A stretch of 25,157 bases of DNA from assembly GCA_021160245.1 (NCBI GenBank), contig JAGHCW010000145.1, forward strand, positions 1 through 25,157, in the 5' to 3' direction. Shown one piece after another: positions 2,171 to 18,488 of this stretch. The position numbers were made by a program, and so were the translations under genes. Under the pieces are notes generated by a model. The model worked only from the letters and a program-made list of their open reading frames with translations. It made no database searches and was not told the DNA's origin. The DNA is from a bacterium. Lineage in GTDB: Bacteria > B130-G9. Numbering within the stretch: the first letter of the stretch is position 1; each line of letters starts with the position of its first letter.

Positions 2171-2407
2171 ATGGTGTCGATACAGCTCGCAAGCTGCGAT
2201 CCCGACATTGTTGACTTTGCGCATTTCGATCTAAAAGTAGTACATTCCCCAGTCGAGTTGACGGGCAGCCATAAGGGCGGGATTGGCCTCCCTTGGGCAA
2301 GCAGGACGAATACGAACGATGCCGTGAATGAACCGGTTCGGGCCTCGGACCTAACCGAAGAAACTAACCCCCGGCTAAAGTACAGACAGGAGGACGCTCA
2401 GTGCTGA
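2171..2407 (+). CDS. Unknown 78-residue ORF heading the hydrogenase operon
   Basis: I do not recognise this protein. Support for translation is positional. GGAGGAG (2161-2167) lies an ideal distance before the ATG, the frame is open for 78 codons, and its stop overlaps the GTG start of hydC by 7 bases, the layout of translational coupling. It begins MVSIQLASCDPDIVDFAH and is acidic overall, with only two cysteines (Cys9 and the last residue Cys78). There is no membrane segment, no signal peptide and no cluster-binding motif. It could be a small hydrogenase accessory protein, a translated leader that couples ribosomes to hydC, or a decayed gene remnant. Sequence character is not strongly protein-like, so I stay near even odds. 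Confidence 0.45.
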   Translation: MVSIQLASCDPDIVDFAHFDLKVVHSPVELTGSHKGGIGLPWASRTNTNDAVNEPVRASDLTEETNPRLKYRQEDAQC

Positions 2408-2922
2408 CTACTCAGCAGGACAGACTGATGGGTGAGATCAATGAACTGGTTGAGGTGCACGGCCACGACCGCAGCGCACTTATACCCATCCTACAAGATA
2501 TTCAGAGTCGTTATCATGCCATCAGCGATTTCACAATGCAGGTCGTCGCTGATCGGCTGGAGATTCATCCGGTTGAGGTCTTCGGGGTCGTCACTTTCTA
2601 TTCTTTCCTCAACGAGAAACACCACGGCCACTTTGTAATCCGGGTCTGTCGGACGATCAGTTGCGACATGGCCGGAAAGGACGCGGTGGCTCAGCAATTG
2701 AGGAGCGACCTCGGCATAGATTTTGGTGAAACGACATCCGACGGACGCTTTACACTCGAATGGGCTAATTGCATCGGCATGTGCGACCAGGGGCCGGCGA
2801 TGTTGGTCAACGATCACGTTCTCACCCACGTCACGCCTGAGAGGGTGCATGACATCTTGGCCGCCTGTGAGAAGACCTTTGGGCCGCACACACCCCAAAG
2901 CGATGAGGAGCACACACTTTGA
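2401..2922 (+). CDS. hydC: NAD-linked [FeFe] hydrogenase gamma subunit (NuoE-like, HydC)
   Basis: A 173-residue thioredoxin-fold [2Fe-2S] protein homologous to NuoE of complex I and to the gamma subunit of trimeric NAD-linked [FeFe] hydrogenases. The four ligands are Cys83 and Cys88 (CRTISC) and Cys124 and Cys128 (CIGMC), spaced C-x4-C-x35-C-x3-C as expected. An N-terminal helical region, about residues 1-75, matches the family. In the complex this subunit sits beside the flavin subunit HydB, and its cluster is thought to act as a side electron store or gate. The start is GTG at 2401, preceded by AGGAGG seven bases upstream. It overlaps the preceding small ORF by 7 bases and hydB by 4 bases, indicating coupled translation. 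Assignment to the hydrogenase rather than complex I follows from the next genes. Confidence 0.9.
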   Translation: MLTTQQDRLMGEINELVEVHGHDRSALIPILQDIQSRYHAISDFTMQVVADRLEIHPVEVFGVVTFYSFLNEKHHGHFVIRVCRTISCDMAGKDAVAQQLRSDLGIDFGETTSDGRFTLEWANCIGMCDQGPAMLVNDHVLTHVTPERVHDILAACEKTFGPHTPQSDEEHTL

Positions 2923-4109
2923 CCATAAGAAACAATATGACTCTTTCCTCAGTCGAGAAGAATAAAGGACTTGCGGCTGCGATGAAAATGGAGCCCGCCG
3001 GCGTGATCGGAATCATCCGTGGTTCGGGCATGAAGGGGCGAGGAGGCGCGGGCTTTCCAACCGGCGCCAAGTGGCACTTTGCTGCTTCGGCAAAGGGCGA
3101 GCGAAAGTTCGTCGTCTGCAACGCAGATGAGGGCGAACCGGGGACCTTCAAAGACCGCGTGCTTATGGACGAATGGCCCGACCTTATCTTCGAGGGCATG
3201 ACGATCGCAGGCTACGCTATAGGCGCTCAGGAGGGCATCCTGTACTTGCGTGGAGAGTACACGTATATCCGGAAAGCACTTGAGGAGTGTCTAGCGAAGC
3301 GGCGAGAGGAAAACCTACTTGGTAATCATGTTCTGGGCAACAGCAATTTCTCCTTTGACATTCATATTCACATGGGATGCGGCGCCTATGTCTGTGGTGA
3401 AGAGACCGCGCTGATTGAGAGCTTGGAGGGCTATCGAGGCGAGGCGAGAAATCGTCCTCCGTTCCCAGTTAATACTGGACTGAACGGGATGCCCACAATT
3501 GTCAACAACGTCGAGACCTTCGCCTGGACATCGGCCATTCTCGTCAATGGAGCGGATTGGTTCAAGGCTATTGGCACGAGCAAATCGACTGGCCCAAAGA
3601 TGCTGAGCATATCCGGCGACGTGGAGTGTCCTGGAGTTTACGAATTCCCCATGGGAACAACCGTCAATGATGTTCTTGATGCGGCGGGCTGTGACTGCGC
3701 GAAGGCCGTTATTATCGGTGGCGCGTCTGGCCACTGCTTGCCTCCAGCGGAGTTCTCCCGTGCTATCTGCTACGAGGACATATCGACAGGGGGGGCGGTA
3801 ATCGTCTTTGGTCCGGACCGTGACATGCTGGATGTCGCCGAGAGCTTCCTTGAGTTCTTCGCAGACGAATCCTGCGGTCAGTGCACGCCTTGCAGGATAG
3901 GAAACGTGAAACTGCTTGAGGGCGTGCGGATGCTGAAGTGCGGCAAGTGCTCGACGAATTGCCTGCGCGACCTCTGCGCTCTCGGGGAGACGATGCAATG
4001 CGCCTCGAAGTGTGGCCTCGGGCAATCCAGCCCCAACGCGTTTCTCTCCATTGTCAGACATTTCAAAAACGAGATATTAGGCCGCGCCTGCACGGCGGCT
4101 GAGTCATAG
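2919..4109 (+). CDS. hydB: NAD-linked [FeFe] hydrogenase beta subunit, short form (NuoF-like, HydB)
   Basis: The 396-residue flavin subunit that exchanges electrons with NAD(H). The FMN/NADH fold shows GRGGAGFPTGAKW (40-52), NADEGEPGTFKDR (68-80) and CGEETALIESLEG (159-171). An SLBB-like segment (about 225-290) follows, then the cluster motif ESCGQCTPC with Cys319, Cys322, Cys325 and the distant ligand Cys365. The protein stops soon after. It has neither the N-terminal [2Fe-2S] domain nor the C-terminal double [4Fe-4S] domain of bifurcating HydB such as that of Thermotoga maritima. Between the third and fourth ligands lie extra cysteines (341, 344, 348, 353, 361) that could hold another metal centre. 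The start is TTG at 2919, chosen because GAGGAG (2905-2910) fits it; an ATG at 2937 is too far away. Confidence 0.9.
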   Translation: MTIRNNMTLSSVEKNKGLAAAMKMEPAGVIGIIRGSGMKGRGGAGFPTGAKWHFAASAKGERKFVVCNADEGEPGTFKDRVLMDEWPDLIFEGMTIAGYAIGAQEGILYLRGEYTYIRKALEECLAKRREENLLGNHVLGNSNFSFDIHIHMGCGAYVCGEETALIESLEGYRGEARNRPPFPVNTGLNGMPTIVNNVETFAWTSAILVNGADWFKAIGTSKSTGPKMLSISGDVECPGVYEFPMGTTVNDVLDAAGCDCAKAVIIGGASGHCLPPAEFSRAICYEDISTGGAVIVFGPDRDMLDVAESFLEFFADESCGQCTPCRIGNVKLLEGVRMLKCGKCSTNCLRDLCALGETMQCASKCGLGQSSPNAFLSIVRHFKNEILGRACTAAES

Positions 4110-4115
4110 GAGATA

Positions 4116-6053
4116 ATGATGAAAGATACTAATGCATGCGCAGACGATACTTGTCGCGCTCCTGTCAGTCAGCGTACACAGGTCGTGGATGCGCCTGGTA
4201 CCAGCGCAACGGTTAAATTGAAGATCGACGATCATGAATTGAATATCCCGATGGGCACAACTATCCTGGAAGCAGCTCGAGAACTTGGTATCCATATCCC
4301 CACGCTCTGCCATCACGACGATCTTTGTGTGGCCGGCGTTTGCCGCGTCTGCCTCGTCGAGGTTGAAGGGCAGAACACGCTTCAGGCGAGCTGCGCATAC
4401 CCAATCACACAGCCGATTACGGTCAAAACGCACACGCGAAAGGTTCGACAGGCGAGGCGGCACATCATCGACCTGCTGCTTTCCAAGCATTACGGTGAAT
4501 GTTACAGCTGCTTCCGCAACAACAACTGCGAGCTTCAGTCTCTTGCGAAGGAATATGGAGTCGACTTCTTCCGCTTTGGCCATCCCGAAAAGCCGCTCTA
4601 TGAAGTTGACCGCTCTAGCTACTCCGTTGTCCGAGATATGAACAAATGCGTCCTCTGCCGCCGCTGCATCCGCACATGCATCGACCTGCAGGAGGTGGGC
4701 GTGCTAGAGGCCGCGGGTAGAAGCGATGGGACGACGATCTCAACGTATCTCGACAAACCGTTGGGCGAGGTAGTCTGCATCAATTGTGGCCAATGTATCA
4801 ATCGATGTCCCACCGGGGCATTAAGAGCTAAAGACCGTACCGATGATGTCTGGGCCGCGATCGATAATCCAGAAAAACACGTGGTTATCCAGACCGCCCC
4901 AAGTCCACGCGCCGGAATTGGCGAGGAGTTTAACCAGGAACCGGGAACACCCATGACTTGGAAAATGAACACCGCCTTGAAGCGCTGCGGTTTTGATAAG
5001 GTATTCGATACGAACTTCACCGCGGACCTCACGATCATCGAGGAGGGCACGGAGCTGATCCTGCGGCTTTACAAGAACCTTGTGCAGAGCGATTCATCTC
5101 AACCGCTGCCGCAATTCACGTCCTGCAGCCCTGGGTGGGTGAAGTATATCGAGCACTTCTATCCCGAATACCTCCCTCACGTCTCGACCTGCAAGAGCCC
5201 GCAGCAGATGTTTGGCGCTCTCATCAAGACCTGGTATGCCCGGATGAACAACATCGATCCGGCGAATATCGTCTCGGTCGCGCTGATGCCCTGCTCCGCA
5301 AAGAAGTTCGAGTGCAACCGTCCCGAGATGCGTGATAGCGGCTATAAGGATGTCGATAACGGTCTCACAACGCGCGAGCTTGCGCAGATGATCCGCGAGG
5401 CGGGCATAGACCTGCCCGAGATGCCCAAGAGTGATTTTGACAATCCCTTTGGCACTGCAACAGGTTCCGGCGTCATCTTCGGCTCAACAGGCGGCGTGAT
5501 GGAAGCTGCGCTTCGTTCCGTAATTGAGTTTGTTACGGGCAAAAAGGTTGAGAATTTCTACGATCATGCCAACATCATTCCGGTTCGAGGCTTCGAGGGC
5601 TGCCGTTACGCAGAGCTTCAGATACCTGACGAGGTGGGCCCTGTGCCGGAGCTCATACAGCATCTCGTTCCGAATTGGGACTGGCTGAAGGGCGCAACTC
5701 TGAAAGTCGGAATCGCCCACGGCACGGCCAACGCGAAGAAGGTAATGGAAAATATCAAGGCTGGCGGCAAGTTCAGCGAGTGCCACTTCATAGAGTTCAT
5801 GGCCTGTCCGGGCGGTTGTCTCGGAGGTGGTGGGCAGCCGATTCCGACAAGTCCTGAGATTCGTGCAGCCCGAGCGAGGGCGATTTACGCGGAAGACGCG
5901 GCTTACGGGGACGCCGGCAAGGCGCGAAAAAGCCATGAGAACCCCGCCGTGTTGAGGCTATATAGCGAATTTCTGACGAACGGTCCGTGTGGACACAAGA
6001 GCCATCATCTTCTGCACACACATTACACAGCTCGCGGCAAATATATCGGATAG
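4116..6053 (+). CDS. hydA: [FeFe] hydrogenase catalytic subunit, M3 type (HydA)
   Basis: The 645-residue catalytic subunit that reduces protons or oxidises H2 at the H-cluster. Domains in order: an unassigned extension (1-30); plant-type [2Fe-2S] (Cys65, 76, 79, 93); His-ligated [4Fe-4S] (His125, Cys129, 132, 138); two [4Fe-4S] clusters (Cys178, 181, 184, 188 and Cys221, 224, 227, 231); then the H-domain. Its signatures are L1 TSCSPGW (335-341), L2 MPCSAKKFE (391-399) and L3 FMACPGGCLGGGGQP with Cys564 and Cys568. L1 carries Ser338 where the usual motif is TSCCPGW. The C-terminus has the small-subunit-like tail with no further cluster domain. Two ATGs (4116, 4119) follow TAGGAG, which overlaps the hydB stop; the second is better spaced. 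With HydB and HydC this forms a group A3-like NAD-linked hydrogenase. Confidence 0.95.
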   Translation: MMKDTNACADDTCRAPVSQRTQVVDAPGTSATVKLKIDDHELNIPMGTTILEAARELGIHIPTLCHHDDLCVAGVCRVCLVEVEGQNTLQASCAYPITQPITVKTHTRKVRQARRHIIDLLLSKHYGECYSCFRNNNCELQSLAKEYGVDFFRFGHPEKPLYEVDRSSYSVVRDMNKCVLCRRCIRTCIDLQEVGVLEAAGRSDGTTISTYLDKPLGEVVCINCGQCINRCPTGALRAKDRTDDVWAAIDNPEKHVVIQTAPSPRAGIGEEFNQEPGTPMTWKMNTALKRCGFDKVFDTNFTADLTIIEEGTELILRLYKNLVQSDSSQPLPQFTSCSPGWVKYIEHFYPEYLPHVSTCKSPQQMFGALIKTWYARMNNIDPANIVSVALMPCSAKKFECNRPEMRDSGYKDVDNGLTTRELAQMIREAGIDLPEMPKSDFDNPFGTATGSGVIFGSTGGVMEAALRSVIEFVTGKKVENFYDHANIIPVRGFEGCRYAELQIPDEVGPVPELIQHLVPNWDWLKGATLKVGIAHGTANAKKVMENIKAGGKFSECHFIEFMACPGGCLGGGGQPIPTSPEIRAARARAIYAEDAAYGDAGKARKSHENPAVLRLYSEFLTNGPCGHKSHHLLHTHYTARGKYIG

Positions 6054-6078: not shown

Positions 6079-7473
6079 ATGGAAGAGACTTATATGATCG
6101 ACGAGAGGCGGATTCACAACACCTTGGTAGCTGCTACCACAAACAGCTCCGACGCCGTCGTCAACGACGTCTTGGCAAAATCGCGTCATTTGAGGGGATT
6201 GGATGAATCTGAGGTCGCGATTCTGATGCAGGTGCGGGCCCCGCACCTGCTCGCCAATCTCTTCGAGACGGCCAGGTGGGTAAAAGACCGCATATACGGT
6301 CGCCGTCTGGTACTCTTCGCGCCGCTCTATATCTCCAATCTTTGCAGGAACGAATGCCTGTATTGTGCCTTTCGGGCAAAGAATAAGGAGGTAAAGCGGC
6401 GTGCGCTAACGCAGCCTGAGATAGCGAGGGAAGTTAAGGTTCTTGTCGAACAAGGGCACAAGCGAGTGCTTCTTGTCGCCGGTGAATCCTATCCCAAGGA
6501 GGGGCTCCAGTATGTTCTCGACGCAGTGAAGACCGTCTATTCTGTAAAAAGCGGCAAGGGCGAGATACGTCGAGTGAACGTCAACATCGCGCCGCTCACT
6601 GTGGAAGAATTCCGCCGCCTCAAAGATGTGGAAATCGGCACGTATCAGCTCTTTCAGGAGACTTACGACCGCTCCGTATATCAGAGAGTTCATCTTGGCG
6701 GCGTCAAGGCGGACTACGACTGGCGCATAACCGCCATGAACCGCGCCATGGAGGCCGGAATCGACGATGTCGGCATTGGTGTGCTATTCGGACTTGCGGA
6801 TTGGAGGTTCGAGATACTGGCTATTCTTCAGCACGCTTCGTATCTTGATGAGCATTTTGGCGTCGGGCCACACACCATCAGCGTGCCTCGTCTGGAGCCA
6901 GCAACCTGCTCCGATATGGCAAGCCATCCGCCACATCCCGTCAGTGACGAGGATTTTCGCAAGATAGTGGCCATTCTGCGATTGGCAGTGCCCTACACTG
7001 GGATCATCATGTCAACACGAGAGACGGCTAGGCTGCGACGTGAGACCTTCGCGCTGGGCGTTTCCCAGATATCCGCCGGCAGCCGAACGAATCCCGGCGG
7101 ATACTCGACGGACAGCCGGGCCGATGACGAGAGCCAGTTCTCATTGGGAGATCATCGCCCGCTCGACGAGGTCATTCGCGACATCTCAGAGATGGGCTAT
7201 ATCCCCAGCTTCTGCACGGGCTGTTATCGGCTCGGTCGCACAGGTCAAGATTTCCTTGACCTTGCCAAGCCCGGAGAGATCAGGAAACACTGCGACCCGA
7301 ATGCTATCTCGACATTCGCGGAATATCTTGAAGATTACGCCTCCGATGAAACTCGCCGTGTTGGCGAAAAGGCAATCGGGGAGTTTCTATCTACAATGGA
7401 CGCCGCGCCTCGAAAGCGAGCAGAGGCCATGCTTCGAGAGATCAGGGAAGGTCAACGGGATGTCTTCTGCTAA
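6079..7473 (+). CDS. hydG: [FeFe] hydrogenase maturase HydG (radical SAM tyrosine lyase)
   Basis: A 464-residue radical SAM enzyme that cleaves tyrosine to p-cresol and dehydroglycine, making the CO and cyanide ligands and an Fe(CO)2(CN)-cysteine synthon for the H-cluster. The SAM-binding [4Fe-4S] motif is C-x3-C-x2-C at Cys89, Cys93 and Cys96 (NLCRNECLYC). The auxiliary cluster site near the C-terminus is Cys379, Cys382 and Cys405, exactly C-x2-C-x22-C, which carries the dangler iron. The expected SAGSRTNPGGY stretch is present (332-342). The frame stays open upstream to 5989 inside hydA, but family alignment and the gene junction favour 6079; an ATG at 6094 after GGAAGAG is an alternative. 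The hydA stop is 25 bases upstream, and the aspartase start overlaps its end by 14 bases. Confidence 0.95.
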   Translation: MEETYMIDERRIHNTLVAATTNSSDAVVNDVLAKSRHLRGLDESEVAILMQVRAPHLLANLFETARWVKDRIYGRRLVLFAPLYISNLCRNECLYCAFRAKNKEVKRRALTQPEIAREVKVLVEQGHKRVLLVAGESYPKEGLQYVLDAVKTVYSVKSGKGEIRRVNVNIAPLTVEEFRRLKDVEIGTYQLFQETYDRSVYQRVHLGGVKADYDWRITAMNRAMEAGIDDVGIGVLFGLADWRFEILAILQHASYLDEHFGVGPHTISVPRLEPATCSDMASHPPHPVSDEDFRKIVAILRLAVPYTGIIMSTRETARLRRETFALGVSQISAGSRTNPGGYSTDSRADDESQFSLGDHRPLDEVIRDISEMGYIPSFCTGCYRLGRTGQDFLDLAKPGEIRKHCDPNAISTFAEYLEDYASDETRRVGEKAIGEFLSTMDAAPRKRAEAMLREIREGQRDVFC

Positions 7474-8914
7474 CGACAGGCCAAACACGACACCGAAGGC
7501 CGAGGGGCATCGAGTCGAGGCGGATTGTATTGGAGAGAGGGAGATCCCGGCAGATATACTGCACGGCATTTACACGGTAAGGGCATTGGATAACTTCCCT
7601 CTCTCGGGCCGTCGGGTTCACTCCGCGCTCATTCACGCCTTTGGACAGGTAAAACTCGCCTGCGCAAGGACCAATCGCGCGCTTGGCGCCTGGTCCGATG
7701 ATCCCCTCAAAGGGGACGCAATTGAGCAGGCGTGCAATGAGATGGCAGGCGCTTCACTCGACGATCTGGTGGTTGTTGACGCCCTGCAAGGAGGCGCCGG
7801 CGCCAGCACGAACATGAATGTGAACGAGGCGCTTGCGAATCGAGCGCTTGTTATCCTCGGAGAGAAGCCGGGGAGTTACGACCGGATATCGCCGCTTAAC
7901 GACATTAACCTCCATCAATCGACAAATGACACCTATCCGACGGCGCTTAAGCTCGCGGCAATCGGCCTTTTGCATGATTTGGATAAGAGTTTGGTCGCGT
8001 TGCAGGAGGCCTTTCAGGAGAAAGAGAAGGAGTTTGCAGGCGTTGTGAAGTTAGGCCGCACAGAGCTTCAGGATGCGGTCTTAACGACTTTGGGAAGAGC
8101 CATGAGCGCATACGCCGAACCGATTGGACGGGACCGCTGGCGGGCATATAAATGTGAGGAGCGACTTCGAGTTGTCAACCTCGGCGGTACTGCCATCGGC
8201 ACCGGGCTATCCGCGCCTCGTGAATACATCTTCCGCGTCGTGGATTTCCTCCGCGAGCAGACGGGCATCGGCTTTGCCAGGGCGGAGAATCTCATCGACA
8301 ACACCCAGAATGCCGACAATTTCGTCGAGGTCTCGGGGATTCTGAAGGCCTGTGCCGCAACGCTTATCAAGATTTCCACAGACCTGCGCCTTCTGTCCTC
8401 TGGCCCTGATGGGGGATTGAGCGAGATTCTGTTGCCGTCTGTCCAGGCCGGGTCATCGGCCATGCCGGATAAGGTCAATCCAGTGATCCCCGAGGCGGTT
8501 ACCCAAGCCGCAATTCGAGTCATGGGATATGACCTCTCAATCACAATGGCGGCTGCCGCTGGCAACCTGGAGCTAAACGCGTTCCTTCCGTTGATCGCCG
8601 ATTCTCTTTTGCACAGCATCGAGCTTCTGACCAACGCCTGCAAAATACTGCGACTCAATTGCGTGCAGGGCATCAAGGCCAATGAGTCGCGATGCCAGTC
8701 GAACGTCGAGAGCTCCACCGCGACTGCAACTGCGCTTATGACGGTCATTGGCTACGATAAGGCGGCAGAGATCGCGAAGCTCTCGAGAGAGCAGGGCTGC
8801 TCCATCAGGCAAATCGTGCTCAGCATGGGACTGCTCAGCGAAGAGGATTTTGACGAGCTGATTTCACCCGAAACCGTTATGCGCCTGGGCGCAAATTCGC
8901 ACAAGGAGAGATGA
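7460..8914 (+). CDS. aspA: Aspartase/fumarase-family lyase, probable aspartate ammonia-lyase, in the maturase cluster
   Basis: A 484-residue member of the fumarase/aspartase superfamily, close in length to known aspartases. The active-site signature GSSAMPDKVNP (331-341) contains the catalytic SS-loop serine. STNDTYPTA (154-162) and GRTELQDAV (199-207) are the other substrate-binding blocks. The segment NPVIPEAVTQ and the following MAAAAGNLELN are aspartase-like rather than fumarase-like. Glu202 stands where aspartases usually have Gln or His. If it is an aspartase it converts L-aspartate to fumarate and ammonium. The start at 7460 follows AGGGAAGG by 8 bases and lies inside the end of hydG; the end overlaps hydF by 4 bases. 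I recall aspartase genes beside hydrogenase maturases in other anaerobes. A role in supplying ammonium for the H-cluster bridge is inference. Confidence 0.85.
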   Translation: MSSANDRPNTTPKAEGHRVEADCIGEREIPADILHGIYTVRALDNFPLSGRRVHSALIHAFGQVKLACARTNRALGAWSDDPLKGDAIEQACNEMAGASLDDLVVVDALQGGAGASTNMNVNEALANRALVILGEKPGSYDRISPLNDINLHQSTNDTYPTALKLAAIGLLHDLDKSLVALQEAFQEKEKEFAGVVKLGRTELQDAVLTTLGRAMSAYAEPIGRDRWRAYKCEERLRVVNLGGTAIGTGLSAPREYIFRVVDFLREQTGIGFARAENLIDNTQNADNFVEVSGILKACAATLIKISTDLRLLSSGPDGGLSEILLPSVQAGSSAMPDKVNPVIPEAVTQAAIRVMGYDLSITMAAAAGNLELNAFLPLIADSLLHSIELLTNACKILRLNCVQGIKANESRCQSNVESSTATATALMTVIGYDKAAEIAKLSREQGCSIRQIVLSMGLLSEEDFDELISPETVMRLGANSHKER

Positions 8915-10146
8915 TGTCGCGATCGGCCCCGAAGGGATTTCGCCTGCATATCGGGCTTTTTGGCCGTCGCAACGTCGGCAAATCGAGTCTCCTCAACGCC
9001 ATCACACGCCAAACGGTCTCCATCGTCTCGGAATTTGCTGGAACGACGACGGACCCCGTGGAAAAACCGATGGAGCTCTTGCCGCTTGGGCCGGTTCTTT
9101 TTATCGATACTGCCGGCATCGACGATGCTGGAGCGCTCGGAGAATTGCGGATTGCGAGAACGCGTCGCGTCTTTGACCGCACAGACCTGGGCGTCATAGT
9201 AACCGACGGCCTTTGGGGAGAGTTCGAGGAGTCGATATCTTCGACTCTGACCGAGATGGGAACGCCTGTGATTGCGGTATTCAATAAGACCGACATCAAG
9301 GACTCGACAGCCGGTATTGCCGCCATGCTGGCCAAGCGAAGTATCCCTTTGGTCAAAACCGCAGCAATTAAGGGCGAGGGAATACTCGATTTCCGTCAGG
9401 CGCTGCTCGATAACGCGCCGGCAGACTTCATCAATACGCCGACCATTCTGGGCGATCTAGTGGGACCAAATGAAGTTGCCGTCTTGGTCGTCCCAATCGA
9501 CAAAGAGGCGCCCAAAGGGCGTTTGATTCTGCCGCAGGTTCAGGTCATCCGCGATCTGCTGGACTTAGATAGCCTCGCGCTTGTGGTCAAGGAACGAGAA
9601 CTGCGATCGGCGCTCGGTCGCCTGAACGGCCAGCCGAAACTCGTTGTCACCGATTCTCAGGCATTTCTGAAGGTCGCCGCCGATACGCCCCTGGACGTTC
9701 CAATGACTAGTTTCTCCATTCTCTTTGCTCGCTTTAAGGGCGATCTGATGACTCAGACAGAGGGCGCGATTGCGATTGACGGTCTTCGGCGCGGTGATCG
9801 CGTGCTGATTGCTGAGGCCTGCTCACATCACCCGATTGCGGATGACATAGGACGAGTAAAGATACCCCGCTGGATTACTCAGTACGTCGGCAGCAAGATA
9901 GAATTTGACGTGGTTGCTGGGCATGATTTCCCAGATGATCTCTCGCAATATGAGCTCGTTATCCATTGCGGCGCGTGCATGTGGAACCGCCGGGAGATGC
10001 TCTCACGGCTGCTCTTATGCAAGCGTGCGGGTATTCCAATTACAAATTATGGCCTTATCATAGCCTACAGTCTCGGCATTCTGGAGCGAGCGCTTGCGCC
10101 ATTCCCCGCAGCGCTCGAGGCTTACTTGAAAGGCAAACAAGGATGA
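8911..10146 (+). CDS. hydF: [FeFe] hydrogenase maturase HydF (GTPase scaffold)
   Basis: A 411-residue GTPase and scaffold that carries the 2Fe precursor and delivers it to apo-HydA. The GTPase domain shows P-loop GRRNVGKSS (18-26), a TTTDP switch (45-49), DTAGI (66-70) and NKTD (125-128). The C-terminal cluster-binding domain has CSH (Cys304, His306) and HCGAC (His352, Cys353, Cys356), matching the family pattern C-x-H followed by HC-x2-C. A dimerisation domain lies between. The start at 8911 overlaps the aspartase stop in an ATGA; a second ATG at 8914 is better spaced from AAGGAGAG and may be used. The end overlaps hydE by another ATGA, so the three genes are tightly coupled. Confidence 0.95.
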   Translation: MMSRSAPKGFRLHIGLFGRRNVGKSSLLNAITRQTVSIVSEFAGTTTDPVEKPMELLPLGPVLFIDTAGIDDAGALGELRIARTRRVFDRTDLGVIVTDGLWGEFEESISSTLTEMGTPVIAVFNKTDIKDSTAGIAAMLAKRSIPLVKTAAIKGEGILDFRQALLDNAPADFINTPTILGDLVGPNEVAVLVVPIDKEAPKGRLILPQVQVIRDLLDLDSLALVVKERELRSALGRLNGQPKLVVTDSQAFLKVAADTPLDVPMTSFSILFARFKGDLMTQTEGAIAIDGLRRGDRVLIAEACSHHPIADDIGRVKIPRWITQYVGSKIEFDVVAGHDFPDDLSQYELVIHCGACMWNRREMLSRLLLCKRAGIPITNYGLIIAYSLGILERALAPFPAALEAYLKGKQG

Positions 10147-11252
10147 TCGATTCTGCAACCCTAGCAGACCGACAGAGCTTCAGCATTGACGAGATGGCCG
10201 CAATCCTAAGCGCCTCGGATGCAGATGATATCGAGGCGATACGAGACGCTGCGGGGAAAACGCTTCTCTCAAACTGCGGCCCCAACGTCTATTATCGCGG
10301 CCTGATTGAATACTCCAATATCTGCAACAGCGATTGCAGATACTGTGGGATCAGGCGCTCAAACAAGGGCGTCAACCGTTACCAGCTCAGTCTAGATCGC
10401 CTTCTTGAAGCTGCCCGATGGTGCGCAGAACAGCGGTTTGGCTCAGTGGTTATCCAATCGGGTGAGCGGCAAGATGAGGCGTTTATTGAGACGATCGTCA
10501 AGGCCCTTCAGCTCATAAAGAGGGAGACCAGGAGCGATGTGCTTCCCCATGGCCTCGGCATAACGCTATCTATTGGGGAGCAGACGAAGGAGACATACAG
10601 ACGGTTCTTTGAGGCGGGCGCCCACCGCTATCTCCTTCGCATTGAGACGAGTGATCCCGCTCTATTCTCGCGCATACATCCTGATGAACAATCGCTCGAG
10701 TCGAGAGTCGCCGCTTTGCGTGCGCTTTCCGAGACGGGATTTCAGGTCGGAACGGGCGTCATGATCGGCCTGCCAGGGCAAACGTCCGAGCATCTCGCAA
10801 ACGACATTGCCTTCTTTAAGAAGATCAACATCGACATGATCGGGATGGGGCCGTTCATACCACACGAGGCCACGCCTCTTGGGAACGAAAGCCTAAACGA
10901 TGAACTGCAAATGCGCCGCAGCCTATTGATGATCGCCATGACGCGCCTCGCGATGCCGGATATAAACATCGCCTCAGCAACTGCCCTTCAGGCGCTTGAT
11001 CCAACGGGAAGAGAGAAGGGGCTTCGCTTTGGGGCAAACGTGATTATGCCACTTCTTACTCCAAGTGACGTTCGGTCGGATTATCTTCTCTATCCTGGAA
11101 AGCCGTGTCTCAACGAATCGGCAATCCAGTGTCGCGACTGCCTCGAGGCGCGTATCAAGGGCATAGGCCGGCAGATTGGCTACGATCAATGGGGAGACTC
11201 AAAGCACGCCTTGAAACGGCACAACAAAGGCCAGAAACCTGTGTCACCATAG
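10143..11252 (+). CDS. hydE: [FeFe] hydrogenase maturase HydE (radical SAM)
   Basis: A 369-residue radical SAM enzyme that processes the HydG-made iron-cysteine synthon on the way to the diiron precursor. The SAM cluster motif is Cys61, Cys65 and Cys68 (NICNSDCRYCGIRR). The C-terminal trio Cys322, Cys330 and Cys333 has spacing C-x7-C-x2-C, as in the accessory cluster of Thermotoga maritima HydE, which is not essential there and is missing in many homologues. The start at 10143 is chosen from the ATGA overlap with hydF and the family N-terminus; the frame is open further upstream only inside hydF. It is the last gene of the operon and ends 6 bases from the stop of the convergent dprA. Confidence 0.95.
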   Translation: MIDSATLADRQSFSIDEMAAILSASDADDIEAIRDAAGKTLLSNCGPNVYYRGLIEYSNICNSDCRYCGIRRSNKGVNRYQLSLDRLLEAARWCAEQRFGSVVIQSGERQDEAFIETIVKALQLIKRETRSDVLPHGLGITLSIGEQTKETYRRFFEAGAHRYLLRIETSDPALFSRIHPDEQSLESRVAALRALSETGFQVGTGVMIGLPGQTSEHLANDIAFFKKINIDMIGMGPFIPHEATPLGNESLNDELQMRRSLLMIAMTRLAMPDINIASATALQALDPTGREKGLRFGANVIMPLLTPSDVRSDYLLYPGKPCLNESAIQCRDCLEARIKGIGRQIGYDQWGDSKHALKRHNKGQKPVSP

Positions 11253-12362: not shown

Positions 12363-13787
12363 CTAGGGCCAGGCAACGAGTATTCTGTCGTCCGGGTCAG
12401 TCCCGGACACCCAGGCAACCGGACGCTTTTTCTCCCTAGCTCTCTTTGTAAGCCAGGCCTTAATCTCCGAATCGCTTGAGCCACACTCCCTCGGGCCAAA
12501 AACCTGGGCAAAACTCGCGGCCGGGCCGAACATCTCCAGGGCAGTCCCGGGATTTGCGCCCTTGACGCCTATTACACAGTGCGACCAATCAGCTCGGTCC
12601 GGCTCGGTCATCGCGAATGTTGCTCCGATGCTCTGAAGCGCCTGGAGTGTGTCCTTCGTCGCGTTGTTCTTCTCCTTTGCGGTAAGGACGACAATTGCGC
12701 CCTCAGGTGTGCCGGCAATTTGCCTCTGCAGCCATATACTGTTGCCTCTTGCGCGAGCTGTATCAAAGCTGCGAGACGAGATGAGCTTGCCTGACGATTG
12801 GTCTATCGCCGCGATGTTGTAGCCCTTCTCGTTCATTGAGACATCTCTGCCATCGACCAGGATATTGCCAAAATCGCCCCTTCCTTCGCCTGCGCTGCGT
12901 GCGAATATATCGCAAGGGGCGGAGATGCCGGTTGAGCCAATCTCGCAAGGTTCAGCGAAAACCAGCTCGATCCCATTCAAAGCGGCGACGCGTGCTATCT
13001 CATAGCGTCCGACACTATCAAAAGCCTCGAACAGTGAGTGCATTGATTGGGGAATCACATCCCCGACTGTGGACTCCGAAACGCTTCCACCCTTAGAGCT
13101 CGCCTTCAAGTTGCCCAGCAACTTGTCCATGCCGGATAAGGTCTGGAACTCACTGAACGACTTTGAGGCGCCAGCAAAATCCCACGTTCTGCAAAATGTT
13201 GCGAATTGGTAGAAGGCCGCGGCCGGGTTGGGAGAGCTCTGCGCTTGGCAATCCCGAAGCAGGTCCAGTGCCCGAGCCCAATGAGACTGCAGGAATTCGA
13301 TCTTGCCCATGAAACAAGAATCATTCGCAATTTGGGAAAGCCGCGCAAGCAACTTGTTATCCTTTGGCGCAAGGAACTGCTGAGAGGGGAAAACGAAGAA
13401 AAACTGATCGGCAATCGCCATCGCCGCCTCGTATTTCTCTAGTGCCTCATGGACTTTCCCAGCGTCAAAACAAGCCTTGGATTCATCGTAGTACTGCGAG
13501 ATACCAGCCATTGCGATCTCTCGCATCTTGGGCTCTACATCTCGACTCTCCCCCTGAATGCGCCTGATCTTGATGCAAAGCGCCATGGCATACTCGAAAT
13601 CGCCGCTCTCAAAGGCGCTCTGAACGCGATAATGAAGAATGGGAACGAGGGTGTATATCTGAATGCCGACTGCGAAAAGGGCTGTTAAAACCAAAAGCGC
13701 AAGAACGAACTTCGAGAATAAGTTACATCTCGGTCTTTTGCTCTCCGCGACCTGTTCTATCGCGCCAATTTCTGCTAGTTCAGCCAT
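12363..13787 (-). CDS. Membrane-anchored protein with TPR-like region and C-terminal ILEI/PANDER-like domain
   Basis: A 474-residue protein of unknown role. Residues 27-50 form one membrane anchor after a short charged, probably cytoplasmic, tail. Residues about 55-215 are helical with TPR-like features (repeated A-L-E-K-Y and F-E-S-G-D motifs) and several cysteines. Residues about 290-412 resemble the ILEI/PANDER domain of FAM3 cytokines and POMGNT1. Supporting motifs are SAGEGRGDFGNILVDGRDVS, GYNIAAIDQSSGKLI, SFDT, PEGAIVVLTA, LQALQSIGA and HCVIGVKG. In eukaryotes this fold binds ligands including carbohydrates; the bacterial versions are barely studied. The start at 13787 has GGAG immediately upstream, but no other start precedes the anchor. 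A good promoter (13833-13861) lies just ahead. dprA follows without a gap. Confidence 0.7.
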   Translation of the reverse strand: MAELAEIGAIEQVAESKRPRCNLFSKFVLALLVLTALFAVGIQIYTLVPILHYRVQSAFESGDFEYAMALCIKIRRIQGESRDVEPKMREIAMAGISQYYDESKACFDAGKVHEALEKYEAAMAIADQFFFVFPSQQFLAPKDNKLLARLSQIANDSCFMGKIEFLQSHWARALDLLRDCQAQSSPNPAAAFYQFATFCRTWDFAGASKSFSEFQTLSGMDKLLGNLKASSKGGSVSESTVGDVIPQSMHSLFEAFDSVGRYEIARVAALNGIELVFAEPCEIGSTGISAPCDIFARSAGEGRGDFGNILVDGRDVSMNEKGYNIAAIDQSSGKLISSRSFDTARARGNSIWLQRQIAGTPEGAIVVLTAKEKNNATKDTLQALQSIGATFAMTEPDRADWSHCVIGVKGANPGTALEMFGPAASFAQVFGPRECGSSDSEIKAWLTKRAREKKRPVAWVSGTDPDDRILVAWP

Positions 13788-13888: not shown

Positions 13889-16800
13889 TTACACGTACTG
13901 GTCCCAACTGGTTACAAGCAGATCGTCCATCGACGTGTCGGAAATGGCCTCAACAAATCGCTTGGCTATCTGCCTGTCCGTTATCAGCGCGACGCCGGAA
14001 TCGACCGCCTTCCTCCTGATGAGGTAGTCGTTGTCGAGCTCTTCCTTCTCGATGTTCTTGGGGATGTTTATGACCAGGTCTATCTTGCCGTCGGCGATAT
14101 AGGTCAGGGCGTTGGGTTCCCTCTCATCAAGCGGCCAATGGAGGATTGTAGCCTCAACACCGTTTGTCTTGAGGAAGTCCGCCGTCCCCTTAGTGGCGTA
14201 AAGGTCGAAGTTCATCTTGAAGAGCATTCTCGCGCTGGGCAAGAGCTCCGCCTTGCTCTCAATCGGCCCGGTTGACAGGAATATGCCCTTCTTGGGGATT
14301 TTGAACCCAACTGATATGAGGCTCTTTAAGAACGCCTCCTTGAAATCGCTGCCCAAGCACGCGACCTCCCCCGTTGACGCCATCTCAACACCCAGGACGG
14401 GGTCCGAGCCCTTGAGCCGCATGAACGAGAACATCGGCGCCTTCACCCCAACATAATCGAGATCAAACGGCGACCTCACGACCTTCGAGACGCTCTTGCC
14501 CATGATGATCTCGGTCGCAAGATCAATGAAATTCGTCCGAAACACCTTGGAGACGAACGGGAAGCTCCTCGACGCCCGAAGGTTGCACTCAATGACCTTC
14601 ACCTCATTGCCCTTTGCGATAAACTGAATGTTGAACGGACCGGTTATCCTGAGAGCCTGAGCGATCTCCTGGGCGATCTTCTTGATGCGCCTCATCGTCT
14701 CCAAGTACGTCCTCTGAGGAGGCAGCACCATAGTCGCATCGCCGCTGTGAACTCCAGCATTCTCAACGTGCTCGGAAATCGCATAGCAATAGACGTCTCC
14801 GGAATTTGCGACCGCGTCTATCTCGATCTCCTTCGCGCCGGTGATGAATTTGCTGATTACAACGGGGTGTTCCATGCTGACATCAGAGGCCTTTATCAAG
14901 TACTCCTTCAGCTCGTCCTTGGCCAACGCAATGCTCATCGCCGCGCCGCTCAGCACATAACTTGGCCGAATCAACACGGGGTAGCCGACCGCATCAGCGA
15001 ACTTCTGGGCCTCCTCTATGCTGGTCAGCTCTTCCCACTCCGGTTGACGAACTCCAAGCTCGTCAAGCAGACGGGAGAACTTATGCCTGTCCTCGGCCAC
15101 GTCGATATCAACAGGTGATGTCCCGAGTATCCTCACGCCGGTTTTGTGCAGTCTCAGGGCGAGGTTGTTCGGTACCTGACCGCCCATTGAGACCACGACG
15201 CCGCCGGGCGATTCCTTCTCGTAGATGTCGAGCACCCGCTCAAAGCTGAGCTCGTCGAAGTACAGCCTGTCGCAGATATCATAATCCGTGCTGACCGTCT
15301 CCGGATTGCAGTTTATCATTATTGTCTGATACCCAAGCCTCTTTAGCGTGATAACTGTGCTGACGCAGCACCAGTCAAACTCGACCGACGATCCGATTCT
15401 GTAGGCCCCTCCCCCAAGGACGACTACGTGGTTCTCCCCAGCGGTCTCGACGTCATCCTCGGAACCGTTATAGGTCAGATAAAGATAGTTGGCGCTGGCC
15501 GGAAACTCTCCGGCAAGCGTATCTATCTGCTTAATGCACGGGATAATCTCAAGGCTCTTTCGCCGCTCTCGGACGGCAGCTTCGCTGCTTCCGATGATGT
15601 GTCCTATCTGCTGATCCGAGAATCCCTTCTGCTTCGCCTCTTTGAACAGCTCGCGAGGCAATCCCTCGAGGTCGTGTCCCTTCAGCGATTGTGCCAAGTC
15701 AACAATGCTCTTCATCTTGAAGAGGAACCACTTATTAACATGCGTCAGCTCGTGGATTCTCGCCACGGAGTACCCCATTCTCATGGCCTCAGCTATGGCG
15801 AACATCCTCTTCTCAGTCGGCTCGCTTAATTCTCTATCCAGATCGTCGAACATGCGATCGTTGCAGACGAGACCCTTCAGGCCCAAATCCAGCATTCGAA
15901 TCGCTTTCTGCAAGACCTCCTCATAGCTTCTGCCAATAGCCATGACCTCCCCGACGGATTTCATCTCGGAGCCCAGATTGACGTTCACATTGCTGAATTT
16001 TTGAAGGTCCCACCTCGGATACTTCAGGACTATGTAGTCAAGCGCGGGCTCAAAGCAGGCCGAGGTTACTGATGTCACGGAGTTCTCAAGCTCTGTAAGG
16101 CTCTTGCCCAGGGCGAGCTTCGTTGCAACGAAGGCCAGAGGGTAACCCGTGGCTTTAGACGCCAGAGCAGAACTCCTGCTCAAGCGGGCGTTGACCTCAA
16201 TGATCTTGTAGTCCTCGGACGCGGGATCAAGCGCAAACTGGACGTTGCACTCGCCGATAACGCCTAGATGTCTTATCAGCTTTATGGCTGCAGCTCTCAG
16301 CTGGAAATTTTCCCTCGATGTCAATGTCTGAACCGGAGCTACTACTATGCTCTCGCCGGTATGAATGCCCATCGGGTCAACGTTCTCCATCGAACAGACG
16401 GCGATGCAGTTGTTGCAGTGGTCGCGCACGACCTCATACTCCACTTCCTTCCATCCAAGAAGATACTCCTCGATCAGAACCTGATCGGCGAACGCAAACG
16501 CCGATTGAACCTTCTGGGCCAATTCCGACGTATTATGCACAACGCCCGAGCCCAAACCACCGAGAGCGTAGGCTATTCTGCACATCACCGGGTAGCCAAT
16601 CTCCTCTGCAAACTCAAGCGCCTCGTCAACACTCGCAGCTGCTCTACTGAGCGGGACATGCAAGCCCGCCTCCAAAACCGCCTTGGCGAAGAGGTCGCGG
16701 TCCTCACTTTTCTGGATTGCCTCGATGGGCGTGCCCAGAATATCGACTTCATGCTTCTTAAGGACGCCGCTTTGCGCAAGTTCCAGGCCGACATTCAGAG

Positions 16801-17074
16801 CGGTCTGACCGCCGACGCCAAGCAATATCCCATCGGGCCTCTCCTTCTCAATCACTTTCTCCACGAAATAGGCGTCGATGGGTAAGAAATACACCTTGTC
16901 CGCTAGATGCTCGGACGTCTGAATTGTCGCTATGTTCGGATTGACAAGGACAGTCTCAATACCCTCCTCCTTGAGAGCCTTGATCGACTGGCTGCCTGAA
17001 TAGTCGAATTCTCCGGCCTGCCCAATTCTTATGGCGCCGGAGCCCAAGATCAGAACCTTCTTCACTCTATTCAT
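13889..17074 (-). CDS. carB: Carbamoyl-phosphate synthase large subunit
   Basis: A 1061-residue large subunit that makes carbamoyl phosphate from bicarbonate, ammonia (from CarA) and two ATP, feeding pyrimidine and arginine synthesis. Length and order match the family: first carboxyphosphate ATP-grasp half (about 1-400, with GSGAIRIGQAGEFDYSG at 11-27), oligomerisation domain (about 400-550), second carbamate ATP-grasp half (about 550-930, with the repeated GGGAYRIGSSVEFDWC) and a C-terminal MGS-like allosteric domain (about 930-1061). The ATG overlaps the carA stop in ATGA, so the two subunits are translationally coupled. No disruption is seen. Confidence 0.97.
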   Translation of the reverse strand: MNRVKKVLILGSGAIRIGQAGEFDYSGSQSIKALKEEGIETVLVNPNIATIQTSEHLADKVYFLPIDAYFVEKVIEKERPDGILLGVGGQTALNVGLELAQSGVLKKHEVDILGTPIEAIQKSEDRDLFAKAVLEAGLHVPLSRAAASVDEALEFAEEIGYPVMCRIAYALGGLGSGVVHNTSELAQKVQSAFAFADQVLIEEYLLGWKEVEYEVVRDHCNNCIAVCSMENVDPMGIHTGESIVVAPVQTLTSRENFQLRAAAIKLIRHLGVIGECNVQFALDPASEDYKIIEVNARLSRSSALASKATGYPLAFVATKLALGKSLTELENSVTSVTSACFEPALDYIVLKYPRWDLQKFSNVNVNLGSEMKSVGEVMAIGRSYEEVLQKAIRMLDLGLKGLVCNDRMFDDLDRELSEPTEKRMFAIAEAMRMGYSVARIHELTHVNKWFLFKMKSIVDLAQSLKGHDLEGLPRELFKEAKQKGFSDQQIGHIIGSSEAAVRERRKSLEIIPCIKQIDTLAGEFPASANYLYLTYNGSEDDVETAGENHVVVLGGGAYRIGSSVEFDWCCVSTVITLKRLGYQTIMINCNPETVSTDYDICDRLYFDELSFERVLDIYEKESPGGVVVSMGGQVPNNLALRLHKTGVRILGTSPVDIDVAEDRHKFSRLLDELGVRQPEWEELTSIEEAQKFADAVGYPVLIRPSYVLSGAAMSIALAKDELKEYLIKASDVSMEHPVVISKFITGAKEIEIDAVANSGDVYCYAISEHVENAGVHSGDATMVLPPQRTYLETMRRIKKIAQEIAQALRITGPFNIQFIAKGNEVKVIECNLRASRSFPFVSKVFRTNFIDLATEIIMGKSVSKVVRSPFDLDYVGVKAPMFSFMRLKGSDPVLGVEMASTGEVACLGSDFKEAFLKSLISVGFKIPKKGIFLSTGPIESKAELLPSARMLFKMNFDLYATKGTADFLKTNGVEATILHWPLDEREPNALTYIADGKIDLVINIPKNIEKEELDNDYLIRRKAVDSGVALITDRQIAKRFVEAISDTSMDDLLVTSWDQYV

Positions 17075-18144
17075 TTCATCGCTCGTACAAACATATCAAA
17101 TAGAAACTCCGAATCATCAGGGCCGGGCGATGCTTCGGGATGAAACTGCGCTCCAAAAAGCGGCCTAGAGATGTGAAGAATGCCCTCATTCGTCCCATCA
17201 TTGCTGTTGTAAAACCACTCACGCCAATCCTCTGGCAAAGTATCAGCATCAACCGCGTAGCTGTGATTCTGTGAAGTGATGTAGCACCTCCTAGTTCCAG
17301 TCTCCACACAGGGCTGATTCTGGCTCCGATGACCGTACTTCAACTTGTAAGTGTCAGCCCCGGCCGCAAGCGCGAGAATCTGCGACCCGAGGCAGATGCC
17401 TAAGATTGGCACGTCCCCAGAAAGAGCGACGCGGACATTCGCTATCGTCTCCTTACACATCTTTGGGTCGCCCGGCCCGTTCGATATCACGATACCGGCA
17501 GCCCTCTCATCTGAAATCGGATAGTCCCACGGGCAGCGCAGGACGGATAGACCCCGCCTCGTGAAAGAGCGGACGATGCTGTTCTTGGTCCCGCAGTCCA
17601 CCAAGACTATCCGCTTCTTTCCGCGCCCGTATTCTACCGGCTCAGCGACGCTAACTTCCTTGACCAGATTGGTCTTGAGGGGGTCTTCGAACTTGATATC
17701 TTGATCGTCGTGGATCATCTTACCAAGCATCGTGCCATGCTCCCTGAGGAGCTTCGTAAGCTGCCTCGTGTCTATGCCGTATATCCCCGGAATGCCCTGC
17801 TCGATCATCCATTCGGACAAGGAGCGAGTGGCCGCCCAATGGGAATACTCATCTGAGTTGCAGGCCACGATCAAACCCCTCACGTGTATCCGCTCCGACT
17901 CAAAATTGGCGAGCAGGCCGTCAACGCTAGTGTCTCCGGGGACGCCATAGTTGCCTACCAGGGGATATGTCATAACCAGTATCTGGCCTCTGTAGGAGGG
18001 ATCAGTAAGGGTCTCTGGATAGCCGACCATTCCCGTATTGAACACCACCTCGCCGGCTGCGATGCTTGAGTCGCCGAATGAGTAGCCGCTAAAACAACTG
18101 CCGTCCTTAAGAATGAGCTTCGCCGGCCGCTTCCTTGAACTCAA
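17071..18144 (-). CDS. carA: Carbamoyl-phosphate synthase small subunit (glutaminase), TTG start
   Basis: The amidotransferase subunit, 357 residues from the start chosen here. The N-terminal CPSase domain begins KLILKDGSCFSGYSFG and includes FNTGMVGYPETLTDPSY. The class I glutaminase domain has nucleophile Cys251 in GICLGSQ and His335/Glu337 in FHPEA. The frame is open to 18402, but homology begins within ten residues of a TTG at 18144, giving MSSRKRPAKLILKDG. AAGGAG lies 10 bases upstream and GGAGG directly abuts the TTG. An ATG at 18151 is out of frame and ends after 14 codons. The next in-frame ATG upstream (18303) would add 53 unfamiliar residues. I therefore prefer TTG, with moderate certainty about the start and high certainty about the gene. 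Confidence 0.93.
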   Translation of the reverse strand: MSSRKRPAKLILKDGSCFSGYSFGDSSIAAGEVVFNTGMVGYPETLTDPSYRGQILVMTYPLVGNYGVPGDTSVDGLLANFESERIHVRGLIVACNSDEYSHWAATRSLSEWMIEQGIPGIYGIDTRQLTKLLREHGTMLGKMIHDDQDIKFEDPLKTNLVKEVSVAEPVEYGRGKKRIVLVDCGTKNSIVRSFTRRGLSVLRCPWDYPISDERAAGIVISNGPGDPKMCKETIANVRVALSGDVPILGICLGSQILALAAGADTYKLKYGHRSQNQPCVETGTRRCYITSQNHSYAVDADTLPEDWREWFYNSNDGTNEGILHISRPLFGAQFHPEASPGPDDSEFLFDMFVRAMK

Positions 18145-18488
18145 CCTCCATTGTCTCCTTGTTTTATGCGAGCTAGCCTCGCTGGGCGCCCTAGAAACGA
18201 TTGAATAATCTGGTTTGTTCCCATATATCAGGACACCCACTCGTGCCGCCGGGACAACGCAACATTGAAATACTAGACCCAAAGAGTCAAATGCTATTGA
18301 CATGCCCGAGGAATGAGATTGACGCTGGCGGCTCTGACCTTTTGGGGTGCGGAGGCCAGAAGCCGTCCTCTCATAAATCGCCTTTTTGTCCCTTGCCGTC
18401 AATCTGATTTTCCAGGCATCATTGCTGCATGTTGACTAAATTGCGCACTAGACCTATTGTTCTGTCTGTAGATAATAGATGTGAAATT
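18145..18488. other. Divergent intergenic region between carA and tRNA-Glu
   Basis: About 340 bases. The frame of carA stays open through much of it, but the translation is not family-like. It must hold the carA promoter; I see no convincing match, only TTGACT-type fragments with poor -10 partners. A good rightward promoter (18432-18460) serves the tRNA. No attenuator or pyrimidine-responsive leader could be recognised. Confidence 0.5.
18432..18460 (+). promoter_or_regulatory. Sigma70-type promoter for tRNA-Glu and probably trxA
   Basis: TTGACT (18432-18437), 17 bases, TATTGT (18455-18460). Predicted initiation near 18467 leaves a leader of about 20 bases before the tRNA. The -10 hexamer is identical to that of the hydrogenase promoter. 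Confidence 0.55.

Follow-up and report, generated by a model that had tools for sequence, protein, structure and literature searches.

Aspartase-type genes among the maturation genes of [FeFe] hydrogenase have been described several times. A 2012 paper on Pelobacter reported an aspA gene flanked by hydG and hydF (PMC3543383), and hyd-linked aspA genes were noted in Sulfurospirillum and D. vulgaris in 2016 (PMC4794192). Pagnier et al. surveyed the aspA-hyd association in 2024 and found aspA in particular near hydF (PMC11736057). The same study demonstrated that, in defined in vitro maturation, 15N-aspartate together with E. coli AspA puts 15N in the dithiomethylamine bridge, that free NH4+ suffices in vitro, at least as well, and that ammonium stimulates the GTPase activity of HydF; ammonium supply and a role for fumarate as electron sink or acceptor were both proposed for aspA (PMC11736057). 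Its survey scored genes around hydF by Pfam membership and contained no phylogeny, and the hyd-linked clade described below was not separated (PMC11736057). No assay of any enzyme of this clade was found in the literature searched.

Here, the locus under study lies in a contig of 25,157 nucleotides from a bacterium of lineage B130-G9 (the whole stretch, hereafter the window). An earlier note on this DNA proposed that an aspartase encoded between hydG and hydF supplies ammonium for the bridge, or fumarate as an electron sink, and suggested a survey and isotope labelling, both of which have largely been done already in the published survey and 15N experiments. The arrangement and the ammonium-for-cofactor idea are therefore not new. 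The hyd-linked clade, its W-K-R motif, its pattern of gain and loss, and the cases lacking H-protein are additions of the present analysis.

The hyd gene run and its aspartase-type lyase

The genes nuoE-nuoF-hydA-hydG-aspA-hydF-hydE form a co-directional run on the plus strand of the window (Table 1). The aspA-like open reading frame starts with ATG, encodes 484 amino acids and is uninterrupted. Its ATG lies within the 3' end of hydG (14-nt overlap), and its TGA runs into the beginning of hydF (ATGATG, 8911/8914), with 4 nt or 1 nt shared according to the start chosen. This confirms the earlier claim that the gene overlaps both maturase neighbours, and it places the gene, like the published hyd-linked aspA genes, directly beside hydF and hydG. 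A further 4-nt overlap joins hydF and hydE (10143-10146). Translational coupling of the aspA-like gene with its overlapping neighbours is likely. In a promoter scan, the real sequence performed no better than shuffles. The minus strand downstream of these genes encodes a protein of 474 aa that matches the ILEI (interleukin-like EMT inducer) domain (12363-13787) and adjoins dprA, and it carries the overlapping carA and carB genes for the small and large subunits of carbamoyl-phosphate synthase (13889-18402).

Table 1. Genes of the hyd run and diagnostic sites of the lyase, in window coordinates
Feature	Coordinates	Strand	Evidence or remark
NuoE-like [2Fe-2S] thioredoxin-like subunit, first in run	2401..2922	+	Pfam PF01257, 158 bits
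NuoF-like diaphorase subunit of hydrogenase	2919..4109	+	PF01512, PF10589; TIGR01959 381 bits, under cut-off
HydA, [FeFe] hydrogenase group A6	4116..6053	+	NF040763 792 bits (cut-off 765)
HydG, radical SAM maturase (CO/CN synthon)	6079..7473	+	TIGR03955 542 bits (cut-off 312)
Hyd-linked aspartase-type lyase (AspA-like)	7460..8914	+	NF008909 604 bits (cut-off 510); tree; fold
HydF, maturation GTPase/scaffold	8911..10146	+	TIGR03918 553 bits (cut-off 326)
HydE, radical SAM maturase	10143..11252	+	TIGR03956 333 bits (cut-off 255)
GCC codon, Ala115 = Thr101 of AspB	7802..7804	+	Ala in window copy only
H152-Q-S154-T155-N156 = clade-typical His138, then conserved substrate-binding S140/T141/N142	7913..7927	+	
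T201-E202 = T187-H188 of AspB	8060..8065	+	E/Q in hyd clade; Q in E. coli AspA
W227-xx-Y230-K231-xx-E234-R235-x-R237, single-helix signature of the hyd clade	8138..8170	+	
SS loop G-S332-S333-A-M-P-D-K338-V-N340-P	8450..8482	+	Ser318/Lys324/Asn326 kept; I320A, G323D in window copy

The product is a full-length lyase of the aspartase/fumarase superfamily. It carries the GSSAMPDKVNP signature (GSSxMPxKxNP), scores 240 bits against PF00206 and matches AspB in Foldseek; its identity to the AspB protein of Bacillus YM55-1 is about 45%, and its AlphaFold model (mean pLDDT 86) aligns to AspB with a TM score of 0.90-0.95. The protein passes the cut-off of the 'aspartate ammonia-lyase' subfamily model NF008909 but falls short of that of the AspA equivalog TIGR00839 (482 bits, cut-off 681), and is therefore called aspartase-type here rather than an AspA equivalog. 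No further aspartase/fumarase-II gene was found in the window genome, which is about 95% complete.

Ser318, Lys324, Asn326, Ser140, Thr141, Asn142 and Thr187 (AspB numbering) are all kept in the window lyase, and the catalytic residues are retained throughout the hyd-linked clade. Position 101 is the exception. This site is occupied in 71 clade sequences, of which the window copy alone has Ala and the 70 others have Thr, so T101A was rejected as a mark of the whole clade. We take Thr101 to be among the residues that hold the succinate half of the substrate, presumably by helping to hold the beta-carboxylate in AspB; no paper on Thr101 in aspartase was found in the open literature. If this role holds, the window copy could be weak, and its own activity is uncertain because Ala replaces a conserved Thr. 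It is also possible that Ala115 is an assembly error, as the genome is a draft and one altered base would account for it. The name aspartase, as used in the earlier note, is supported by the subfamily cut-off, the fold and the catalytic residues, but not by the equivalog cut-off or at Thr101.

Linkage to maturation genes and a hyd-linked clade

To place the window gene among its relatives, 386 diverse bacterial genomes were surveyed with HydF called above the curated cut-off. HydF was found in 81 of them, and 33 of these 81, nearly all from different families, have an AspA-type gene within 1.5 kb of hydF. The adjacent gene lies upstream of hydF in 29 cases and downstream in four, and in none is it on the opposite strand; in six further genomes with HydF, a member of the clade described below lies on a different contig. 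The aspA-hydF linkage is far beyond chance. Flanks of 5 kb were complete for 22 clusters; 16 of these have HydE nearby and 15 HydG, but only 6 HydA, and the linkage thus tracks maturation rather than the hydrogenase gene. The aspA-like gene is missing from about half of the hydF neighbourhoods, and its adjacency to hydF, when mapped on the HydF tree, requires at least 16 changes by parsimony, 10 of which are forced by well-supported branches. Together, these two observations indicate that the gene is accessory: useful, but not required. Within the window's own family, two genomes (G001 and G003) lack both HydF and the lyase and two (G000 and G002) have both. Seven genomes (G167, G083, G242, G105, G093, G282 and G353) encode HydF-like proteins of 263-317 bits, slightly below the cut-off and far above generic GTPases, which possibly form a HydF-like subfamily.

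Phylogenetic analysis separates the hyd-linked proteins from classical aspartases. In a tree of 136 sequences, all 62 hyd-linked proteins fall within one clade of 73 tips. An IQ-TREE analysis on 85 rows supports this clade (bootstrap 97, SH-aLRT 89) and makes it sister to an aspartase clade (100/97) that holds both E. coli AspA and AspB; the window lyase lies in the former, not in the latter. The hyd-linked clade is also marked by a motif: 70 of its 73 members, against none of the 63 other sequences, combine Trp213, Lys217 and Arg221 (AspB numbering). With W227, K231 and R235 at these positions, and by its placement in the tree, the window lyase belongs to the clade. In the model, the three residues share a helix (211-236), along which they are spaced i, i+4 and i+8. 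Other family members vary at these sites and mostly have polar residues there, a pattern that suggests an exposed face that became fixed, for example as a docking surface. In addition, His138 is found in 57 of the 73 members and in none of the 63 others, and Glu or Gln at position 188 was confirmed as a clade-wide feature. Both sites flank the substrate loops; in AspB, His188 and Asn142 contact the amine (PMC11744663).

Eleven tips of the clade have no hyd genes in the stretch examined, and nine of these come from genomes with HydF elsewhere; for tip L064, the one HydF match in the genome is partial and lies at the edge of a contig. Among the HydF-negative genomes, the tree took in 20 high-scoring loci, weaker matches being left out, and only one of the 20 (G174) bears a clade member, which adjoins hydG in a locus cut by the contig end. 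The eleventh tip, a Desulfosarcina lyase at the base of the clade (L063:5001-6347), shares NLHQSTND and GSSAMPDKVNP; it was rejected as a true member owing to its long branch, the lack of the W-K-R motif and the lack of HydF in its genome. In G346 and G053 a classical aspartase is present besides the hyd-linked copy, which makes the latter a separate, dedicated paralogue there.

Possible roles of the hyd-linked lyase

Our preferred reading, with a probability of roughly 0.6, is that the product of the hyd-linked gene is an aspartase dedicated to hydrogenase, which provides the ammonium for maturation and possibly docks a partner. The enzyme would be co-expressed with HydG, HydF and HydE and would convert L-aspartate to fumarate and ammonium; the ammonium would be taken up through the T-protein/H-protein (aminomethyl-lipoyl) route, which HydF uses to install the dithiomethylamine bridge. 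The window genome has adjacent gcvT (C167:6615-7691) and gcvH (C167:7772-8140) genes, and the published ammonium-to-bridge route is therefore available to it; when hyd loci were searched with the GcvH and GcvT of this genome, no glycine-cleavage genes were found in the clusters. The window enzyme may be an active aspartase, and bridge nitrogen would be its physiological role. The ammonium supply put forward in the earlier note is favoured by the published 15N labelling and by the gene association. On the other side, the labelling used E. coli AspA, which lies outside the clade, the gene is accessory and the window copy carries T101A; free ammonium is no less effective in vitro, so a local or dedicated supply is hypothetical. 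That interpretation is thus plausible, already proposed, and partly supported for the window gene.

Being the sole aspartase/fumarase-II gene found in its genome, the window gene could possibly serve general metabolism, a point against a dedicated aspartase. The corresponding alternative is a catabolic or redox role, in which aspartate is broken down to fumarate, used as a source of carbon or a sink for electrons, and the gene shares its regulation with hydrogenase since the two serve fermentation. Such a role was proposed for Pelobacter (PMC3543383), and fumarate as an electron acceptor was noted by Pagnier et al. (PMC11736057). We regard it as unlikely, although it fares best among the alternatives, given that the linkage is to hydF rather than hydA, that the clade stands apart from catabolic aspartases and that G346 and G053 each have a classical aspartase alongside a clade member. 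The fumarate sink raised in the earlier note is accordingly the less supported of its two suggestions, with HydA so much rarer than HydE and HydG in the flanked clusters.

Somewhat less likely still, the true substrate of the clade may not be free aspartate, or the clade may pass the amine directly to a partner, with the W-K-R face as a docking or ligand site. An aspartate-derived adduct would have parallels in argininosuccinate and adenylosuccinate lyases, and the clade-specific His138 and Glu/Gln188 lie beside the substrate loops, where His188 of AspB touches the amine; the fixed W, K and R at otherwise variable positions point the same way. The residues for the succinate half are kept, however, bar Thr101 in the window copy, Gln at 188 is found in E. 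coli AspA too, and that enzyme supports in vitro maturation (PMC11736057).

Genomes lacking H-protein also bear on this alternative. H-protein above the NCBIfam cut-off is absent from 12 of the 80 other HydF genomes, of which G168 passes the Pfam H-protein model and G300 gives a marginal partial match. G013 (locus L084) and G300 (locus L088), both 99% complete, have hydE, hydF, hydG and a hyd-linked lyase without a recognisable H-protein, so the H-protein route is not the whole story there. Likewise, G261, G116, G025, G197, G020 and G141 have HydF and HydG above cut-off, and a full-length GcvH was not found in them; completeness across these eight genomes is 91-100%. Possibly the H-protein route is less than universal; a divergent carrier would be another way to account for these genomes. 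A bolder and more doubtful proposal is that hyd-linked 'aspartases' are a fourth maturation factor that would dock HydF or the T/H-protein through the W-Y/F-K-E-R-R helix face and hand over the bridge amine directly, not as free ammonium; if so, the lyase could work in genomes without a recognisable H-protein. Improbable, finally, is an impaired window copy, decaying or repurposed as a passenger: Ala at Thr101 in this one of 71 clade sequences, with I320A and G323D nearby, would fit, but the frame is intact, the overlaps and the remaining catalytic residues are kept, and the Ala codon may reflect an assembly error at one base of this draft genome.

Where the bridge nitrogen comes from has been established only lately, and solely in vitro. 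For the dedicated aspartase that we prefer, the clade and its motif offer a concrete enzyme and concrete residues, and the hydEFG genomes that lack a recognisable H-protein, including two that carry a hyd-linked lyase, are natural test cases for the universality of the glycine-cleavage route.

Comparison with known systems

The closest counterpart is the hydG-aspA-hydF arrangement of Pelobacter carbinolicus, which has the same gene family in the same slot and the same proposed ammonium role. The hyd-operon aspA genes of Sulfurospirillum cavolei and of the survey by Pagnier et al. (2024) likewise share the family and the proposed role. Compared with these published genes, the window copy comes from a different lineage and carries T101A. 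With E. coli AspA and Bacillus AspB (1J3U/3R6V), the window lyase shares the fold, the catalytic SS loop, K324 and N326, but it differs in H138, E/Q188 and W213-K217-R221, belongs to the sister clade and scores below the TIGR00839 cut-off. Class II fumarase (FumC) has the superfamily, fold and SS loop in common with it, whereas the window lyase has QSTND rather than QSSND, GGAG(T/A)S rather than GSGTQ, and E rather than H at position 188, and is distant from FumC on the tree.
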